From a virus, in the IMG/VR virus record IMGVR_UViG_3300042861_000957, positions 1 to 36,694 of that record: a stretch of DNA of 36,694 nt; one strand, written 5' to 3'. The translations under genes and the position numbers were made by a program. Below the pieces are notes generated by a model, which had not been told where the DNA came from, did not search any database, and saw only the letters and a program-made list of their open reading frames with translations. Every line of letters starts with the position of its first letter. Position 1 is the first letter of the stretch. Positions 3,921 to 34,801 of this stretch are shown piece after piece.

Positions 3921-3927
3921 TATTTAT
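3921..3927 (+). promoter_or_regulatory. TATTTAT motif (candidate late promoter) before ECF-like sigma gene
   Basis: TATTTAT is followed by TATT and ATG at 3932, identical to the minus-strand arrangement before the metallopeptidase gene. It lies between two divergent genes and directly abuts the -33 box of the opposite-strand promoter. Confidence 0.5.
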
Positions 3928-3931
3928 TATT

Positions 3932-4537
3932 ATGAAAATTATAATTTCGGAATCACAATATAATAAATTAATCTCTAATATTTTGTTAAAGGAGTCTACT
4001 GAATTGGACACAGGGACTGGAATTACTGATTTTGAAGTGGTTTACAAAGATTGTTACCCAACAATATTTAAACAAGTTTGTCTTAAATATTCAAAAAATG
4101 ATTATGAGCAGGCACAGGATTTTTGTCAAGATGGTTTTATTAAAGCATACCAAAAAAAAGAACAATTTACAGGTACAAACCCTTGTGCTTGGATAAGTTC
4201 AATAGTAAGAAATAATGCAATAGATGAATTAAGAAAACTTAACCGACAAGGAAAAAAAATTGATTTAGATAAAACTAATTTAGGTGCCTATGATGTTAAT
4301 ATGGACGATGATAATGACGAATTTTATTCTCAAAAATATTCTGCTGATGATTTAAGAGCCGCAATTGAAACATTAAAACCAGGTTATAGAGGTGTATTTA
4401 CAAAATACTATCTAGAAGATAAACCACATCAACAAGTGGCAGACGAATTAGGAATAAATATTGGTACCTCAAAATCAAATTCATTTAAAGCCAAGAAAAA
4501 AGTTTTGGATTATCTTAAAAAATTAAAAAGGGACTAA
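3932..4537 (+). CDS. ECF-like RNA polymerase sigma factor with N-terminal leader
   Basis: The ATG at 3932 gives 201 residues; an upstream TTG at 3908 is rejected because it would run through the TATTTAT motif. Residues about 40-105 match sigma-70 region 2 (a CYPTIFKQVCLKY helix, the acidic QDFCQDGFIKAY, then WISSIVRNNAIDELRK). Residues about 140-198 match region 4 (LRAAIETLKPGYRGVF followed by the helix-turn-helix HQQVADELGINIGTSKS). Regions 1 and 3 are absent, as in ECF sigmas. An acidic linker (124-132) joins the two. Unusually, a leader MKIIISESQYNKLISNILLKES precedes region 2, with L-K-E/S resembling a T4 prohead-protease site. A strong terminator follows. It may redirect host RNA polymerase to phage promoters; which ones is unknown. 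Confidence 0.8.
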   Translation: MKIIISESQYNKLISNILLKESTELDTGTGITDFEVVYKDCYPTIFKQVCLKYSKNDYEQAQDFCQDGFIKAYQKKEQFTGTNPCAWISSIVRNNAIDELRKLNRQGKKIDLDKTNLGAYDVNMDDDNDEFYSQKYSADDLRAAIETLKPGYRGVFTKYYLEDKPHQQVADELGINIGTSKSNSFKAKKKVLDYLKKLKRD

Positions 4538-8110: not shown

Positions 8111-9628
8111 TTAATTATATTTCATCACAATATATCTAGTTCCATTTACAGTAAATTCATCATAACTACTGTCATAACTATTAAGTGCGTCACCATAATC
8201 GTAATCTCTTGCTAAATCATCTCTTAATTCCTCCTCATCAATAAAATCGTTAAAGTTAGAATACCCCATATCTTCTAAAAATCCAAGTGGGTCATCTTCA
8301 ATACCATCAAGATATTCCTCAACAGCTCGTTCAATATCGTCTTCATCTGGTTCACCATCTGGATTGTCTTTTATTTCTTCTATTTCATAATCAATATCTG
8401 AAATTCTTTCATCCCTAGCTTCCTGATGTTCGTCCGTATCTTCATCGTCATATATTTGATGTGGTGACACTACTTGACCATCTTTATGTAAAACCCAATG
8501 ACTTGCACTTTTATATAAAGATGGGTCTGCACTCATATTTCTATATTGAAATCTGTTACCTTCCGCGTCTTCAAAATCAAACACGTCGCCGTCTTCTCTT
8601 GTTGGTTCAGATATTGGGGCTCTTACTCCCTCATTTTCATATACCCATTTTTCCATTTCAAGTAACCAAATTTCTTCTTCTTGATCATCACTTAACCCTT
8701 TTTCAACATTATAAGAGTCTGGTGATTCTCTTACCCACTCATCAACAGCGTATTCAAACTCATCTCTCACTTTTCTCCCATCAATATAGTTTGATAAAAA
8801 CCTATTGTCATACACATTTGACGCGTCGTTTACCTGGTCAAGTATGTATTCATCTAAACTTTTATCTGCTTCATATTCAGTTCCAACCGCATATTCATCT
8901 CCAGTAGATAAAGATTCAAAAGATGTCATATAAAAATGTGTTCCATTTGGATAAAAATCATACACATCAACATAGTCTTCAAACCCGTCAATTTCCTCCT
9001 GTACTTCGTCATATTCTTCAGATAATTCATCATATTTTTCTTCATCATCTTCATTTTCCATTTGAGTTTCTAATTCAGAAAGTCGTGTTCTTAAATATTC
9101 TAACCTTTCTTTATCTTCATCACTTAAAACTGTAATATTACCCTCTTGTTCGGCATACATAAATGCAACATTTGCTTTTTCACCTTCTTCATCTGTATCA
9201 TCTAAATTCCAATCATCAAGTTCTCTTCTATTTTGTTGTTTGTCGTATTTTTTTTGTTTTGCTCTCCTATCCATAATATTATTGTAAGGAGTACCCCAAT
9301 ACCTCATAGACCCTGTGACTTCAATATTGTCTAAATTTTGAATGTTTGTGTAAGATGCGTTTAAATCGCCTTCAATTTTAATTGGCCCTAAATCAACTAA
9401 TTGTTTTCGGTCGTTAAAATCAGTTAAATCCAAATTTCCTTTTACCACCAATTTTTTTCCTTTAAATTTTGGTAGTTTTGGGATTGCTTGTGCTTGAAAG
9501 AAAACTTTTTTAAGTAACTCAATGTATTCTTCTGGACTAATTTCAACTTCTTCTATATCATCCTCTTTAATTAATCGTTTTAAACGATTAATTAATTTAT
9601 TTTCCGTAAGTCTAAAAACCTTTTTCAT
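8111..9628 (-). CDS. Long acidic protein with N-terminal leader and short solenoid domain
   Basis: The 505-residue protein begins MKKVFRLTENKLINRLKRLI followed by KED. This basic amphipathic leader is of a kind (MKK-x-[IV]-R-LTE-x2-L-x3-[LV]-K-R) that I recognise at the start of many large-phage proteins. Residues about 55-115 form repeated short strands (LVVKGNLDLTDF, IKIEGDLNASYTNI, IEVTGSMRYWGTP) like a beta-solenoid/LRR fragment. A charged coiled coil follows at about 170-220. The rest is very rich in Asp and Glu. It lacks catalytic motifs. Acidic character and leader suggest an internal or DNA-mimicking virion protein, but this is inference. TATTTAT lies 6 nt before ATG, back to back with the homing endonuclease gene. 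Confidence 0.65.
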   Translation of the reverse strand: MKKVFRLTENKLINRLKRLIKEDDIEEVEISPEEYIELLKKVFFQAQAIPKLPKFKGKKLVVKGNLDLTDFNDRKQLVDLGPIKIEGDLNASYTNIQNLDNIEVTGSMRYWGTPYNNIMDRRAKQKKYDKQQNRRELDDWNLDDTDEEGEKANVAFMYAEQEGNITVLSDEDKERLEYLRTRLSELETQMENEDDEEKYDELSEEYDEVQEEIDGFEDYVDVYDFYPNGTHFYMTSFESLSTGDEYAVGTEYEADKSLDEYILDQVNDASNVYDNRFLSNYIDGRKVRDEFEYAVDEWVRESPDSYNVEKGLSDDQEEEIWLLEMEKWVYENEGVRAPISEPTREDGDVFDFEDAEGNRFQYRNMSADPSLYKSASHWVLHKDGQVVSPHQIYDDEDTDEHQEARDERISDIDYEIEEIKDNPDGEPDEDDIERAVEEYLDGIEDDPLGFLEDMGYSNFNDFIDEEELRDDLARDYDYGDALNSYDSSYDEFTVNGTRYIVMKYN

Positions 9629-9684: not shown

Positions 9685-10272
9685 ATGAATTGTGGAATTT
9701 ATAGAATTTATAATAATGAAAATAATAAATCATATATTGGTAGTTCTATAAATTTAAAAAATCGTGAATATAAACATTTTTGGTTGTTATCAAAAAAAAT
9801 TCACGACAATATACATTTACAGAAATCTTTTACTAAATACGGAAAAGATTCTTTTGTATTTGAAATTTTAGAGTTATGCGAAGAGTCTCTTTTGTTTGAA
9901 AGAGAAAATTACTATATAAAAATATATGATTCTTGTAATCAAACTTTTGGGTATAACAAAGCTGAAGTTAATGAATTTAGGCGAAATAATTTAAATAACA
10001 CAACAAAAAGAAAATTATCAATCAATAATTTAATTAAAAATAATAATTTCAAGAGATTTTTACTAACGAACATCATAAATGATGATTCACATATTTTTGA
10101 TAATTTATTTGATGCGGCAAGTTATTTAATTAATAATAATTTTTCAAATGGAAGTAATCGTAATGTTAGACAAAAAATTTCTTCAGCATTAAGGGGTAAA
10201 AAAATAAACAATGGTAGTAAAGGAAGTGTAAGACAAACTATTTATAAACATAAATTTCAAATAATAAACTAA
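9685..10272 (+). CDS. GIY-YIG homing endonuclease
   Basis: The 195-residue protein begins with the catalytic GIY-YIG domain: G4-I-Y6, Y17-I-G19, the conserved R27 in the following helix, and an acidic FERENYY helix near 71-77 that supplies the metal-binding Glu. FGYNK at about 88-92 completes the domain. The C-terminal part contains DAASYLINNNFSNGS and SALRGKKINNG, like the NUMOD/IENR DNA-binding repeats that follow such domains. It is free-standing, in an intergenic slot between two conserved phage genes, which is typical of homing endonucleases that spread among T4-like phages. Its very Asn/Lys-rich composition differs somewhat from the neighbours. No intron or intein was seen nearby. Confidence 0.9.
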   Translation: MNCGIYRIYNNENNKSYIGSSINLKNREYKHFWLLSKKIHDNIHLQKSFTKYGKDSFVFEILELCEESLLFERENYYIKIYDSCNQTFGYNKAEVNEFRRNNLNNTTKRKLSINNLIKNNNFKRFLLTNIINDDSHIFDNLFDAASYLINNNFSNGSNRNVRQKISSALRGKKINNGSKGSVRQTIYKHKFQIIN

Positions 10273-19384: not shown

Positions 19385-20755
19385 TTATTGAGTCTTATCA
19401 TTATATTTCATTAACTCTTTAATTCTATCAAAATCTTCTTTTAATTTTCCCTTTGATAATGTAACAGGTTGTTCAGCTCTTTTGTAAGTTTCATCTTTAG
19501 CTTTACCAAGTGGATCCTCATCAAATATTTTAGCAAATTTAGAATTAGCTTTTGTTTTTACACTATTACCCCAACCTTGTACGTTAGCGTTTTCTGCTGA
19601 ACCTTCAATTTGTTTTTTAAATCTTTTTTTATCTGGGAATGGGGGATCAAAATCTGGTACCATTTGTCCTGCGTATTTATAATTCCAATCAGTCTCTTCT
19701 TCAGATGTTGAGTAAGCTTTCTTTTCAGATTCTTTAAACTCACCATTTCCTTGTGGAAAACCTTCTGGATTCATTTCGTATGTTGTTTCAGAACCTGGTT
19801 TTGTATAGTCTTTAATTTTTTTCAATACGGAATTAATATAATCGTCATTGTTTTTTTTAGATTGTTTTACAGCTTTTTCATATGCCTCATATCCAGCTGG
19901 TGTTTGACCTTTTTTGAATTTTTGTTTTTCTTCATTAACAAATTGTTCAATCATATCAATAACTTCATTTTCTGTAAAAACAGCAGACTCTTTACCACTA
20001 TAGATTCTATATACGGTTTCTTCAACTTTTGATTTTTTAGATTGTCTTGCTGCCAATTTCATTGGTTCTTTTTTGTTATTATCGTTGTCCAAATCTAAAA
20101 AATCAGGTTTACTTCCTTCTTTAGTTTCTGTTTTTTTACTTCTAAGTTTTTGAAAATCGTTTGCTCCTATTTTATCATATGGTTTAGCTTGTCTTGCGAT
20201 GTGTTTTTGTCCGGTAGATAGTTTTTTACTTTCTTCCATTGACATTTTTCTATAACCACATTCGTTACATTCACCCTCTTTCATAGTTCCCATGCCACAT
20301 TCGTTACATTTTTCTTTACTTTCTTTCATTGACGTTTTTCTGTAACCACACTCATTACATTCACCTTCCGTCATCATTCCTAACCCACACTCATTACACA
20401 CTTCTGCACCTTCAGTTAATTCATCAAAATTAAATTTGGTATCATATGGTAATTTATGTTTTGGCCATTTTTCAGATGGATTAACATCTGTTGCCCAAGG
20501 ATCACCTGGACTCTTGAAGTGTTTAGACATATCTCTATCTGCCATTCTTCTAGCGTCTTTTTTAGATTTGTACTCTGTGTCTCGTCTGTATTTATTAAAT
20601 TTACCCATATCTAAAAAATCATCATCATCTTCTTGTACATAATCAAATTCTGAATCTTTATTTAATTTTAGTGTTTTCACAAGTGAATTTGCCTTTTCTT
20701 CTAAAGTTTCGTTCAGAATTTTTTTAAAAAGTCTATCGTAATAGTTATTATTCAT
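19385..20755 (-). CDS. Zinc-ribbon-repeat protein with N-terminal leader
   Basis: The 456-residue protein begins MNNNYYDRLFKKILNETLEE, a leader of the type discussed for other genes here. Residues 120-179 are two tandem 30-residue copies, each with CNECG-x8-CNECGYRK, so eight cysteines for probably two zinc ribbons. A segment at about 240-285 (YRIYSGKESAVFTENEVIDM with IEQFVNEEK) and the following AYEKAVKQSKKNNDDYINSV...YEMNPEGFPQGNGE are recognisable from a conserved family in large marine phages. The whole protein is polar and Lys/Glu-rich with L/M-T/K-E-G sites that could be cut by a prohead protease. Role unknown; internal head or scaffold-related is a guess. Confidence 0.65.
   Translation of the reverse strand: MNNNYYDRLFKKILNETLEEKANSLVKTLKLNKDSEFDYVQEDDDDFLDMGKFNKYRRDTEYKSKKDARRMADRDMSKHFKSPGDPWATDVNPSEKWPKHKLPYDTKFNFDELTEGAEVCNECGLGMMTEGECNECGYRKTSMKESKEKCNECGMGTMKEGECNECGYRKMSMEESKKLSTGQKHIARQAKPYDKIGANDFQKLRSKKTETKEGSKPDFLDLDNDNNKKEPMKLAARQSKKSKVEETVYRIYSGKESAVFTENEVIDMIEQFVNEEKQKFKKGQTPAGYEAYEKAVKQSKKNNDDYINSVLKKIKDYTKPGSETTYEMNPEGFPQGNGEFKESEKKAYSTSEEETDWNYKYAGQMVPDFDPPFPDKKRFKKQIEGSAENANVQGWGNSVKTKANSKFAKIFDEDPLGKAKDETYKRAEQPVTLSKGKLKEDFDRIKELMKYNDKTQ
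20219..20398 (-). repeat. Two 90-bp tandem repeats encoding zinc ribbons
   Basis: Codons 120-149 and 150-179 of the gene encode nearly the same 30 residues (CNECG...GECNECGYRK...ESK twice). The copies differ at several codons, so this is an older in-frame duplication rather than a recent one. Confidence 0.8.
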
Positions 20756-25618: not shown

Positions 25619-26527
25619 TTAACAAATTTTAGCAAATATATGTTTTATCACATCTACAGTCCATCCATTACCAATCATCTTTCTTATTTGATTTTCACTG
25701 GCAACACCATCAAAATAATTATCCGGTACTGTTTGTAATCTACAGTATTCTTTAATGGTATAATATCTAAATGGTAGTTTGTTTTTAAATGCGTCTCTGT
25801 GTCTTCCAATCGGTAAAGTTGTTAATACATTATCTTTAGCCACAGTTGTAATACAATTACTCTTATCTCTATTTGTTGCTCTTACTTCTAGACATTGGGT
25901 TATAGGTATTGATTTATTATAGTCATCTCTCTTACCGTGTTCATTTAATCTCCGACCAAGAATTGTTGCCTTATTTAATTTTTTTTTGTCATAATAATTT
26001 CCATCTGGACCAATATCTTCTAAAATGTCTTCTAGTTTTATACCAAGATTTTCTGGTTGATTCACATTTGGTATGTTTGTCCAGTAAAGACGTTCTCTAG
26101 TTTGAGCTGAAACTAAATTACTATTTATCTTAATTGGTTTAACCCCCATATATTCTGTTATCACATCTTGAAACTCCTGCTTCATCACAACGTTTTCCAA
26201 TAAAAAATACTTTGGGTTTAACTCGTTTTTTAACCTTACAAATTCAAAAAATAATTTACTACGTGGGTCATCAAAATTTAATTGTCTACCAGCAAAGGAG
26301 AATCCTTGGCACGGGGATCCTCCAATTAGTAAATCAATTTGTGGTAGGTCTTGACCTTTAATTTGTGTAACATCACCTAACTGTATTGTATTTGGGTGAT
26401 TGTGTTGTGTCACTTTGATTGCGTGTTTATCCACTTCCGAAGCAAAATACTTATCATATTTAATACCAGCTCTGTTAAGGGCTATTTGTCCACAAGATAA
26501 TCCATCAAATAGACTTAATACATTCAT
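25619..26527 (-). CDS. DNA cytosine-C5 methyltransferase, third of tandem set
   Basis: The 302-residue enzyme shows the cytosine-C5 methyltransferase motifs: I SLFDGLSCGQ (5-14), IV GGSP-C73-QGFS with the catalytic cysteine, VI LLENVV (109-114), VIII QTRERLYW (142-149) and X MIGNGWTVDVI (284-294). The target-recognition region (about 165-255) differs from the two paralogues upstream. No restriction enzyme gene is adjacent, so it is a solitary methyltransferase, probably protecting phage DNA against host restriction. Its ATG lies 23 nt inside the previous methyltransferase gene. It is the last gene of the operon that begins near 29542. Confidence 0.93.
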   Translation of the reverse strand: MNVLSLFDGLSCGQIALNRAGIKYDKYFASEVDKHAIKVTQHNHPNTIQLGDVTQIKGQDLPQIDLLIGGSPCQGFSFAGRQLNFDDPRSKLFFEFVRLKNELNPKYFLLENVVMKQEFQDVITEYMGVKPIKINSNLVSAQTRERLYWTNIPNVNQPENLGIKLEDILEDIGPDGNYYDKKKLNKATILGRRLNEHGKRDDYNKSIPITQCLEVRATNRDKSNCITTVAKDNVLTTLPIGRHRDAFKNKLPFRYYTIKEYCRLQTVPDNYFDGVASENQIRKMIGNGWTVDVIKHIFAKIC

Positions 26528-27410
26528 ATTTCAAATTTTTAAAAATGTGTCCTATAACATCAACTGTCCAACCATTACCCAAAACATTTTTTCTTTGGTT
26601 TAAAGAAATCATAGATGTATATCCATCTGGAAGCGTTTGTAGTCTTTCATATTCTGTTATATTCAACTCACGTAGATTACCATTAACAATAACACCATAG
26701 TTACATGCTGTATTAATTGTATTTGTTTTACCATAACTAACTCTACCTCTTCTATTTTGACTCTTTGGGAATTCCAAATTAACGCAATCGCCCTCTTTTG
26801 CGTATAAGTAACCAGTTTTAGTTCCGTTCTTGATTTTAAAACCTTCTTCATTTATATCAAGTACAAGTATATGGTCATTAATTATTTTTTCATCACCATT
26901 TGGTATTAAAATATCTAATATGTTTATATTTCTGTCTTCTATATTTTTATCAATGGGTATGTTTGTCCAATAAAGTCTTTGTCTTTTTTGTGCTGAAAAA
27001 AATTTACTATCAATCATTACTGGTTCAACACCAATAGCTTCTGTTATAATATTTTCCCACTCTTTTTTCATTACAACATTTTCAAGTAAGAAATAGGTTG
27101 GTTTAACTTCATTTAATATTCTAACATATTCCCAAAATAAACCACTCTTACCATCAAAACCAGTATTGTCTCCAGACCGACTAAAAGACTGGCAAGGCGA
27201 TCCTCCAATTAATAAATCAATCGTTGGTAATTTTGATGTATCTAAACCAACTACACTTCCTAACTGAACTGTGTTTGGAAAATGGTGTTGTGTAACTTGA
27301 ATTGCGTATTTATCAATTTCAGAAGCAAAATAGTTTTCTACTTCAACGCTAGTTCTTTGTAGTGCTAGTTGGCCGCAAGAAATTCCATCAAATAGACTCA
27401 ATACATTCAT
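26505..27410 (-). CDS. DNA cytosine-C5 methyltransferase, second of tandem set
   Basis: The 301-residue enzyme has the same motif order as its neighbours: SLFDGISCGQ, GGSP-C73-QSFS, LLENVV, the QKRQRLYW variant of motif VIII, and VLGNGWTVDVI. It is the most divergent of the three (QSFSRSG instead of QGFSFAG; a different recognition region). Its last seven residues (YECIKSI) are encoded by the first codons of the next methyltransferase read in another frame, giving a 23-nt overlap. Likely a solitary modification enzyme with its own specificity. Confidence 0.93.
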   Translation of the reverse strand: MNVLSLFDGISCGQLALQRTSVEVENYFASEIDKYAIQVTQHHFPNTVQLGSVVGLDTSKLPTIDLLIGGSPCQSFSRSGDNTGFDGKSGLFWEYVRILNEVKPTYFLLENVVMKKEWENIITEAIGVEPVMIDSKFFSAQKRQRLYWTNIPIDKNIEDRNINILDILIPNGDEKIINDHILVLDINEEGFKIKNGTKTGYLYAKEGDCVNLEFPKSQNRRGRVSYGKTNTINTACNYGVIVNGNLRELNITEYERLQTLPDGYTSMISLNQRKNVLGNGWTVDVIGHIFKNLKYECIKSI

Positions 27411-28206
27411 AGTTTCTAATTTCTTTAAATATATGTTCTATAACTCCAACAGTCCATCCATTTCCTAACATTTTATATCTTTGAGTATTTGAAACGACTG
27501 AAGAATAATTATCTGGAACATTTTGTAATCTTTCATATTCTACTGGTGTTAACATTCTAATATTACCATTGTCCATAACGCCACTCATTTGTTGATTACC
27601 AAATCCTTTGTAGTCTCTTGCAAGTAATGTTGCCGCCTTATCGCCACCAGGTTTATGTTCCTTTTTTTGTTTTGATACAATTATATGTTGTCCACTTAAA
27701 AGTATGTTAGACATTGTTATGTTTGAGTCTTCTGGTTGTTCTATGTTTGGTATGTTGGTCCAGTAAAGTCTTTTTCTATTTTGTGCCGACACAAGATTAC
27801 TATTTATAAGAATTGGTTTTACACCCATATGTTCTGTTATAACATCCTCATATTCTTTTTTCATTACAACGTTTTCAAGTAGAAAGTACTTTGGTTTACA
27901 TTCCTCCATTAACCTTACAAATTCAAAAAACAATTTACTTCGTTCATCATTAAAATTTAATTGTTTACCAGCAAATGAAAATCCCTGACACGGACTACCA
28001 CCAATAAGTAAATCTATTTGTGGTAGGTCAGAACCTTTCACTTGTGTTACATCACCAATCTGGATTGTTTCCGGGTAGTTATGTTGGGTTACTTGTATTG
28101 CAAACTTATCTATTTCAGATGAAAAGTATTTACCATACTTAATACCAGCTTTGTTAAGTGCAATTTGTCCACAGGACATCCCATCAAAGAGACTTAATAC
28201 ATTCAT
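27388..28206 (-). CDS. DNA cytosine-C5 methyltransferase, first of tandem set
   Basis: The 272-residue enzyme has SLFDGMSCGQ, GGSP-C73-QGFSFAG, LLENVV, QNRKRLYW and MLGNGWTVGVI. It is about 30 residues shorter than its paralogues, mainly in the target-recognition region (about 165-215), which may mean relaxed or altered specificity. Its N-terminal half is closest to the third copy. The last residues (YECIESI) come from the start of the next gene in another frame (23-nt overlap). It starts 3 nt after the sigma factor stop, so modification genes are coupled to the sigma gene. Confidence 0.92.
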   Translation of the reverse strand: MNVLSLFDGMSCGQIALNKAGIKYGKYFSSEIDKFAIQVTQHNYPETIQIGDVTQVKGSDLPQIDLLIGGSPCQGFSFAGKQLNFNDERSKLFFEFVRLMEECKPKYFLLENVVMKKEYEDVITEHMGVKPILINSNLVSAQNRKRLYWTNIPNIEQPEDSNITMSNILLSGQHIIVSKQKKEHKPGGDKAATLLARDYKGFGNQQMSGVMDNGNIRMLTPVEYERLQNVPDNYSSVVSNTQRYKMLGNGWTVGVIEHIFKEIRNYECIESI

Positions 28207-28209
28207 ATT

Positions 28210-29010
28210 TTATAGATATTCAAACAATTCGGAAGATTCGTTACGAAGTCTACGAAGTGCTTTTTCTTTTATCTGACGAACTCTTTCTTTAGTTAAATTA
28301 AAGTCTGAGCCAATGTCTTCTAATGTTCTTGGTGTTCCTGTTAATCCAAAGTAATCACCAATAATTATTTTTTCACGTTCATCTAACACATTCAATAATG
28401 ACATTAGTTTATTCTTTAAAATGTCTTTTGTATCAAATGCCGCATCTGGAGCTGGTGCGTCGTGGTTTTGAATTAAATCAATTAGTGTGTCACCATCTTC
28501 ATTTATGTTTGTGTCTAGGTTTACAATTGAAGGTAGTGCTAAAAATTTTTCCTCTAATGATTTTCCACTTTGTTCAACTTCTTTTTTTGCTTTTTGTAAA
28601 TCCTGGACAACATTAACCGGTAATCTAATTGTTCTTGCGTTATCATTCAATGATTGGATGATTGATTGTTTTACCCACCATACCGCATATGAAATAAACC
28701 GTAACTCTTTTGTCCAGTCAAAGTTTTTAATTGCTTTCATAAGTCCAAGATTTCCCTCAGCAATAAGGTCTGACAAATCAAGTCCTTGGTTTTGATATTG
28801 TTTTGCAACAGTGATTACAAATCTTAAATTCCCCTCAAGTAATTCTTGTTCAATTTTTTCTTGGTCTCTTTTAGTTAAATTTTCAGATTTCATTAATTGT
28901 GCTAACTCCCTTTCTCTTTCTGGAGTCATTACTTTTATTTTTCTGATGTCTTTTAAATAATGATATATTTCTTCTTGATTAATTGGTGCTCCTAAATTTT
29001 TATCTTTCAT
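28210..29010 (-). CDS. RpoD-like RNA polymerase sigma factor
   Basis: The 266-residue protein is a near-complete primary-type sigma: region 1.2-like helix (IYHYLKDIRKIKVMTPERER), region 2 with NLRFVITVAKQYQNQGLDLS (61-80) and FISYAVWWVKQSIIQSL, a shortened region 3, the finger-like NEDGDTLIDLIQNHDAPAPD, and region 4.2 with TLEDIGSDFNLTKERVRQIK (229-248). It looks like Bacteroidota RpoD but lacks about 30 residues of region 3 and most of region 1.1. It may direct host polymerase to phage promoters, perhaps TATTTAT-type. It is followed at 3 nt by three methyltransferase genes and preceded at 1 nt by the 176-residue gene. Confidence 0.9.
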   Translation of the reverse strand: MKDKNLGAPINQEEIYHYLKDIRKIKVMTPERERELAQLMKSENLTKRDQEKIEQELLEGNLRFVITVAKQYQNQGLDLSDLIAEGNLGLMKAIKNFDWTKELRFISYAVWWVKQSIIQSLNDNARTIRLPVNVVQDLQKAKKEVEQSGKSLEEKFLALPSIVNLDTNINEDGDTLIDLIQNHDAPAPDAAFDTKDILKNKLMSLLNVLDEREKIIIGDYFGLTGTPRTLEDIGSDFNLTKERVRQIKEKALRRLRNESSELFEYL

Positions 29011-33435: not shown

Positions 33436-34186
33436 TTTCAATATCTTCAAAGGATTTTATTGAAAACTTCAAAAATGGTTTTGGGTTTTCAAGGTCTGTG
33501 TAAGTATATTCTTTAGTTCCGAAATCATAAGTTCCGAAACCGTGGTTTCTGATACTCTCTCCAATGTTCTGTTGAATTGGTGATCCAATCATATACCCTT
33601 TACCGGTTTTAAACTTAAACTCCTGTCTTTTATGAATATCACCACACAAAACAATATCAAGTCCGTTGAATTTCTCTACGTCATAGGCTTCCTCGCCAAA
33701 GTCAAAACCTAAATCTGTCTTCATTCCTTGGATTGGTCCGTGAAACAAACCAACTTTAATACCCGTTGCAACATTCAAATCTGGTGGGATATTTCCCTGG
33801 TATTGTGAATACACACACCAACTAACATTATCATCTTCATAAACACCTCGGTCTTTGTAATAAACAATATTGTTGTCATTTAATGAATGGATAATCGGAG
33901 ATAAAGCGTCTAACCTATCTATATTATTCACTAAAAAGTCGTGGTTACCAGGAATGATTATTGTTTTTGCAATACTAGAACATTCGGTCAATATCCACCT
34001 TACCATTTCAATAAGTTCTGGTGTCATTTGATTTTTTGAATGAACGAGGTCTCCAGTGAATACAATTCTATCTGGCTCAATTTCTTTCCATTGATTAATC
34101 GCATCTTCCATAATTGACCTATAAAGGTCGTGGTCTTTAAATAATCTGATGTGTAAATCAGAAAAGTGTACAAGTTTATTTATCAT
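33407..34186 (-). CDS. Recombination endonuclease subunit, gp47/SbcD/Mre11-like
   Basis: The 259-residue nuclease carries all phosphoesterase motifs of Mre11/SbcD: D10-L-H12, G-D46-L-V-H, G-N81-H82-D83, H149 in LFHGP, and G-D183-I-H185-KRQ. Near the end GSPIQQNIGE is the conserved SbcD/gp47 element. It lacks the long C-terminal part of bacterial SbcD, as T4 gp47 does. It forms the nuclease half of the gp46/gp47 complex. One-base overlap with the upstream 76-residue gene. Confidence 0.92.
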   Translation of the reverse strand: MINKLVHFSDLHIRLFKDHDLYRSIMEDAINQWKEIEPDRIVFTGDLVHSKNQMTPELIEMVRWILTECSSIAKTIIIPGNHDFLVNNIDRLDALSPIIHSLNDNNIVYYKDRGVYEDDNVSWCVYSQYQGNIPPDLNVATGIKVGLFHGPIQGMKTDLGFDFGEEAYDVEKFNGLDIVLCGDIHKRQEFKFKTGKGYMIGSPIQQNIGESIRNHGFGTYDFGTKEYTYTDLENPKPFLKFSIKSFEDIENGTEVLKNF

Positions 34187-34416
34187 TACATTACAATTTT
34201 TGGTGGTGCACCCAAGTCATCATATCCATCCTCTTTGAATGGGTTATGAGGTGTTGGTACTTGGATTGGTACTACGGTTCTTGGGTTTGGGAAGAATGGG
34301 TCAACTTCTTTAACTTCATTCATTTTTTCAATTATTGGTAATATAGATATATGTTCATCCTCTAACCTACCATGTAAATAACCTTCTAACCAAAAATAAA
34401 ATTCTTTGTGTGTCAT
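34186..34416 (-). CDS. Hypothetical protein, 76 residues
   Basis: The protein begins MTHKEFYFWLEGYLHGRLED, a conserved opening (LTHKEFYFWLEGF/YL) of short Flavobacteriia phage proteins. The C-terminal half is Pro-rich with VPIQVPTPHNPFKEDGYDDL. No function assigned. It overlaps both neighbours (1 and 4 nt). Confidence 0.65.
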   Translation of the reverse strand: MTHKEFYFWLEGYLHGRLEDEHISILPIIEKMNEVKEVDPFFPNPRTVVPIQVPTPHNPFKEDGYDDLGAPPKIVM

Positions 34417-34637
34417 AGTAAACCCCCCTCTATACTAAAATCCTCCTCTATACTAAAATCGTATTCATCCTCATTTTCAATTTTATCCCATTCTAATTCT
34501 TGGTCTCCCCTAAAATCTACTTCCTCATAAAACTTTTCTTCATCTTCTTCAAAAAGTTTCGCTTCTTCATCTGTTAACTCGGCAGAATACTTACAAATTG
34601 TCGTGTAAGATTCAAACCATACTAATTTTTTTGCCAT
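34413..34637 (-). CDS. Acidic small protein, 74 residues
   Basis: The protein starts MAKKLVWFESYTTICKYSAE and becomes strongly acidic, ending in two repeats DFSIEE/DFSIEG. WFESYTTICKYSAELT is the only distinctive part, and I cannot link it to a function. Its stop overlaps the next ATG by 4 nt. Confidence 0.6.
   Translation of the reverse strand: MAKKLVWFESYTTICKYSAELTDEEAKLFEEDEEKFYEEVDFRGDQELEWDKIENEDEYDFSIEEDFSIEGGLL
34427..34460 (-). repeat. 18-bp period direct repeat
   Basis: CCTCTATACTAAAATC occurs at 34427-34442 and 34445-34460, identical over 16 bases. It encodes the DFSIE repeats at the end of the acidic small protein. Confidence 0.75.
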
Positions 34638-34654
34638 TTTAGTTGTTTTTTTAT

Positions 34655-34801
34655 TTATACTAATTCTCTATTATAAAGATTTACCAGAATTATTCTAGCA
34701 AATCTAAAGTCTTTTACTTTTTTAAGATTTAAACCATAAGCATTCGCTATAGATTTCAAATGAGGATATGCCTCACTAATTGTCATTTTTCCTACTTCCA
34801 T
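34655..34801 (-). CDS. Small protein, 48 residues
   Basis: ATG at 34801 opens a frame MEVGKMTISEAYPHLKSIAN followed by AYGLNLKKVKDFRFARII and a short end. ISEAYPHLKSIANAYGLNL looks like a small helix-turn-helix-like element. It fills the gap between the zinc-ribbon gene (5 nt upstream) and the acidic protein gene, in the same orientation. Function unknown. Confidence 0.6.
   Translation of the reverse strand: MEVGKMTISEAYPHLKSIANAYGLNLKKVKDFRFARIILVNLYNRELV

Follow-up and report, generated by a model that had tools for sequence, protein, structure and literature searches.

The open reading frame at positions 3932–4537 of the window (the whole stretch of viral DNA analysed here, a virus record of 36.7 kb that lacks end repeats) encodes a small ECF-type sigma factor that is probably carried in the phage head: we consider it likely that the protein is made late, enters the head by way of a T4-style leader, is released there by an S77 protease, is injected and binds the host RNA polymerase. 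According to this model, a TATTTAT late promoter would direct synthesis of the sigma factor late in infection, and its first 21 residues would serve as a capsid-targeting sequence that draws it into the prohead core. The S77 prohead protease would then cut after L-x-E21, and the freed sigma factor would stay in the head beside the DNA until injected at the next infection, when it could bind host RNA polymerase ahead of any phage gene expression. Sequence evidence underlies the tag, the cut site and the late-type promoter, and we infer packaging, cleavage, ejection, promoter choice and action on the host RNA polymerase.

A preliminary description of this DNA had called the product an ECF-like sigma factor with regions 2 and 4, and profile searches bear out both the reality of the ORF and that assignment. 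The gene lies on the forward strand, starts at an ATG and encodes 201 residues, leader included. Region 2 (residues 47–105; 4070–4246, +) matches Pfam Sigma70_r2 (PF04542, 1.3e-11), region 4 (residues 140–190; 4349–4501, +) matches Sigma70_r4_2 (PF08281, 8.8e-12), and the NCBI model TIGR02937 (sigma70-ECF) aligns at near full model length over residues 35–195 (1.1e-24), its score of 86.9 bits lying 44 bits above the cut-off of 42.9. The Pfam search gave no match to Sigma70_r1_2 (region 1.2). Regions 2 and 4 are joined by a short linker, and the nearest solved structures are those of ECF sigma factors. With regions 2 and 4 present and region 1.2 absent, the predicted protein is clearly an ECF (group 4) sigma-70 factor. 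Its AlphaFold model consists of a helix at residues 7–18 (low confidence), an unstructured stretch and helical domains at residues 34–105 and 138–200; this layout places residues 1–21 outside the sigma domain and the candidate cut site, LKE/S (the slash marks the cut), within the unstructured stretch.

The proposed capsid-targeting sequence, MKIIISESQYNKLISNILLKE, occupies 3932–3994 (+) and is common to at least 46 unrelated protein clusters. The candidate cut, MKIIISESQYNKLISNILLKE/S, falls after Glu21 (codon 3992–3994) in the motif L-K-E/S, and is separated from the sigma domain by a linker of about 11 residues (3995–4033, +) modelled as low-confidence coil. Both the extra leader and the L-K-E/S site proposed earlier are therefore retained, the leader at 21 residues, with the correction that residues 5–7, I-[TS]-E, form a further candidate site; since this tripeptide belongs to the conserved leader core itself, the cut position is not certain. 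At the DNA level, the leader core (3932–3961) is 97% identical to the corresponding stretch of L217, L231, L232 and L253, and three of these loci (L217, L231 and L253) match the left flank at about 79–92%, with much lower identity to the right of the core. Along L217, identity to the window falls from 82–92% left of the core and 97% within it to about 42–74% over the sigma gene and rightward, such that the leader looks like a recombination junction in a mosaic. Faster evolution of the sigma gene than of its neighbours was considered and rejected, because the low identity to L217 also covers all of the sequence rightward.

The leader is not confined to sigma factors. Viral contigs were scanned with a degenerate DNA pattern for MKIII[ST]E.Q and ORFs of at least 50 codons were kept, giving at least 134 ORFs that begin with the leader (at least 132 from the contig scan and two from the window). 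Those among the matches listed form 46 clusters, whose mature parts have no BLAST similarity to one another. The same pattern gave five matches in 257 Gb of prokaryote genomes, all in ORFs of 5–10 codons and none in a gene. For the matches listed, the stricter site [LI]xE[ASEDGTN] occurs at residues 11–25 in 24 of the 46 clusters and in 0–2 at later 15-residue intervals; the looser L/I-x-E motif is found in 32, and 14 have no [LI]xE at residues 11–25. Several sigma factors, a phage lysozyme (2.4e-11) and a cell wall hydrolase (4.6e-13) are found among the cargo, together with weak matches to DHH and SprT-like proteins and with zincin-like proteins. One leader-bearing protein, L033 from record G007, resembles an ADP-ribosyltransferase by eye (FLYHGSNIKNLDSI), has no Pfam match, and is a possible analogue of T4 Alt. 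A single 154 kb record (G004) has more than 30 genes with the same or a related leader.

Within the window, a second protein (582–1814, −; zincin-like by motif, from a cluster of 10) has the same leader, MKIIITENQLRLIKE/A, while a related leader, MKKVFRLTENKLINRLKRLIKE/D, is found at 8111–9628 (−) and a possible one, MNNNYYDRLFKKILNE/T, at 19385–20755 (−); all three genes carry a TATTTAT box. A tblastn search of annotated phages with the 410-aa leader protein gave no match. The cultured Flavobacterium phage immuto (NC_055915; L211–L215), related by its capsid protein, encodes S77 and a gp23 with VSE/A and has leader families of its own near its structural genes, for example MENFDLKKFLVENKLTTNSKILKE, which make it usable as a test system.

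As the window is a fragment in which the protease and capsid genes are both missing, the machinery that would recognize such a leader is seen in its relatives. An S77 (T4-type) prohead protease and a gp23-type capsid protein occur in the same 13 of 20 leader-bearing records, and the 13 capsid proteins listed all have LINE/A or LINE/S at the position of the T4 gp23 cut. Both proteins also occur in 3 of 14 additional records carrying the sigma family, and the leader-bearing sigma factor, S77 and gp23 stand together in single records in two cases (G004 and G013). The S77 search gave no match in three 47%-identical relatives, which are fragments. The earlier proposal that a capsid-targeting leader brings the sigma factor into the virion is a candidate that has gained strong comparative support, from the leader on at least 46 clusters and from S77 and gp23 in relatives.

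A profile search of viral contigs recovered 67 sigma loci encoding 39 distinct proteins, and none in bacterial genomes. An [LI]xE motif precedes region 2 in 38/38 usable distinct homologues, lying 18–28 residues ahead of a fixed region 2 anchor (mostly exactly 19) when the leader core is excluded, although these are homologues whose agreement is inflated and not independent. The motif is present in all three architectures of the family. In the first, the leader is followed by sigma; in the second, a hydrophobic FDPTG domain and a second site stand between leader and sigma; in the third, sigma is fused to a DHH phosphoesterase that has a leader of its own. Fusions of the last kind (L254–L277) are about 640–653 aa long, with [LI]xE between the parts; four of the DHH fusions have their first ATG within or after the expected leader, which makes that leader uncertain. 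Hydrophobic domains of the FDPTG type follow leaders both in sigma fusions and in proteins that have no sigma part (L231–L238, and G006 33714–34706, −), and are possibly membrane or ejection modules. A site kept inside fusions would be hard to explain unless the sigma factor is cut free. No such leader was found on the ECF sigma factors of crAss-like, DAC19 and Rhizobium phages.

Late synthesis, also put forward in the preliminary description, is likewise backed by strong comparative support, as the box that would direct it precedes nearly all members of the sigma family and genes in the gp21 and gp22 positions. In the window, the late-promoter-like TATTTAT (3921–3927, +; no −35) starts 11 nt before the ATG, and the box is present in 37/38 sigma genes. 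Among the matches listed, the box lies no more than 60 nt from the ATG in 28 of the 46 leader clusters, against 3.4 expected, with a peak at 11–13 nt, and it precedes the genes at the gp21 and gp22 positions in the 11 capsid regions listed. An alignment of 236 instances contained no −35 element. TATTTAT thus resembles T4 late promoters (TATAAATA, gp55) in being a lone −10-type element ahead of structural and other late genes, but differs from them in sequence and in often lying just 4–6 nt from the ATG, a spacing that may indicate leaderless transcripts. Over all genes, late box and N-terminal LxE are modestly associated (odds ratio 2.1, p 0.002; p 0.004 within the window). Promoters of this class were seen in the window and in the capsid regions of G004, G007 and G009–G022, before gp21, gp22 and leader genes. 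A GIY-YIG-like ORF, identified by motif (window 9685–10272, +), also has the box.

What the sigma factor would do once injected, including the immediate switch of transcription put forward in the preliminary description, is less certain. It is possible, and we hold this reading only tentatively, that the packaged protein has no role at the first phage promoters and is instead an accessory effector that reprogrammes host transcription or counters host defence. Early-type genes of the window already carry the host consensus TAnnTTTG, which suggests that early transcription may not depend on the leader-bearing sigma factor; no window gene has both TATTTAT and TAnnTTTG upstream, and the replication-type genes (gp46, gp47) and an RpoD-like sigma gene have no TATTTAT box. 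When a third promoter class was sought by dyad analysis (window with G002; G004, G006 and G007), only A/T-rich, late-box-like and host-type signals emerged, although a class of few members would escape such a search. The sigma factor is also dispensable in the group: the sigma profile has no match in 7 of 13 large records, and in another three the match is weak and covers the leader end. Against an accessory role, no host target is known. Record G007 (L191–L199) has a very strong repeated promoter-like motif of host type, TTGGTT...TATCTTTG, upstream of 16–26 genes.

The TATTTAT box ahead of its own gene would also be expected if the ECF protein were a late sigma factor reading that box within the same infection cycle. 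We regard this as unlikely, since the box has no −35 element and records with boxes at gp21 and gp22 have no convincing ECF relative, yet six large records keep an RpoD-like sigma factor. In the window, the latter is encoded at 28210–29010 (−) and has neither a leader nor a TATTTAT box; it lies close to gp46 and gp47, the region that holds gp55 in T4. It is 52–82% identical across the six large records, five of which have no convincing ECF match, and is on this account a better late-sigma candidate than the leader-bearing ECF protein, which is putative accessory cargo. Three adjacent paralogues at 25619–28206 (−) of the window are C5-cytosine methyltransferase-like by motif.

Pro-sigma factors are known, for example in sporulation, and a cleavable N-terminal stretch immediately ahead of region 2 could likewise be a pro-sequence that holds the sigma factor inactive until it is cut, without involvement of the capsid. 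Such a function is very improbable given that the same leader precedes unrelated proteins that need no sigma-specific control, among them lysozymes, cell wall hydrolases and phosphoesterases. That the protein is an ordinary ECF sigma factor with a meaningless N-terminal extension is scarcely credible, for although leaderless ECF sigma factors exist in several other phages, the cut site in 38/38 homologues and the leader shared by 46 unrelated clusters among the matches listed largely refute it.

Packaging and injection of the leader-bearing sigma factor would have parallels in known systems. In T4, gp21 cuts short N-terminal leaders after L/I-x-E, foreign proteins tagged with a capsid-targeting sequence are packaged and delivered, and the injected Alt modifies host RNA polymerase (PMC9026906). 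The leader family described here resembles T4 IPI–IPIII and Alt in combining a short N-terminal leader on unrelated cargo with a candidate L/I-x-E cut site and, in relatives of the window, a predicted S77 protease, but differs from them in the leader sequence, in the presence of more than 30 leader-type genes in one genome, and in having a sigma factor as cargo. In phage P1, the N-terminal 30 residues of DarB are enough to bring a reporter into the head (PMC9024508); unlike the leader family, the Dar proteins share no sequence, and P1 is a different type of phage. Jumbo phages with gp23 and S77 encode sigma factors, and phiKZ-like jumbo phages carry a virion RNA polymerase for their early genes (PMC7824862), a whole polymerase where the cargo proposed here is no more than a specificity factor acting on the host's enzyme. 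The window protein is about 28–30% identical over region 2 to 4 to the ECF sigma factors of crAss-like phages (e.g. cr1_1, cr10_1), which have neither leader nor cut site.

We found no earlier report of a packaged sigma factor in the literature searched, the scope of which stopped short of subscription journals and preprints. Capsid-targeting leaders and injected modifiers of transcription such as T4 Alt are already known. The wider reading, to which we give even chances, is that an entire group of phages with gp23-type capsids, whose hosts are probably Bacteroidetes, injects dozens of leader-tagged proteins as an exchangeable set, that a sigma factor in this set redirects the host RNA polymerase ahead of all phage gene expression, and that polyproteins made as fusions are split in the head by the prohead protease into phosphoesterase and sigma factor. 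If the proposal for the sigma factor is true, the phage head would carry its own transcription specificity factor, and the host RNA polymerase could be retargeted at time zero without the phage bringing a polymerase. The tag MKII[IL][ST]E-Q...[LI]xE would also provide a list of candidate injected proteins of uncultured phages, many without an assigned function, and would make what such phages inject directly testable.
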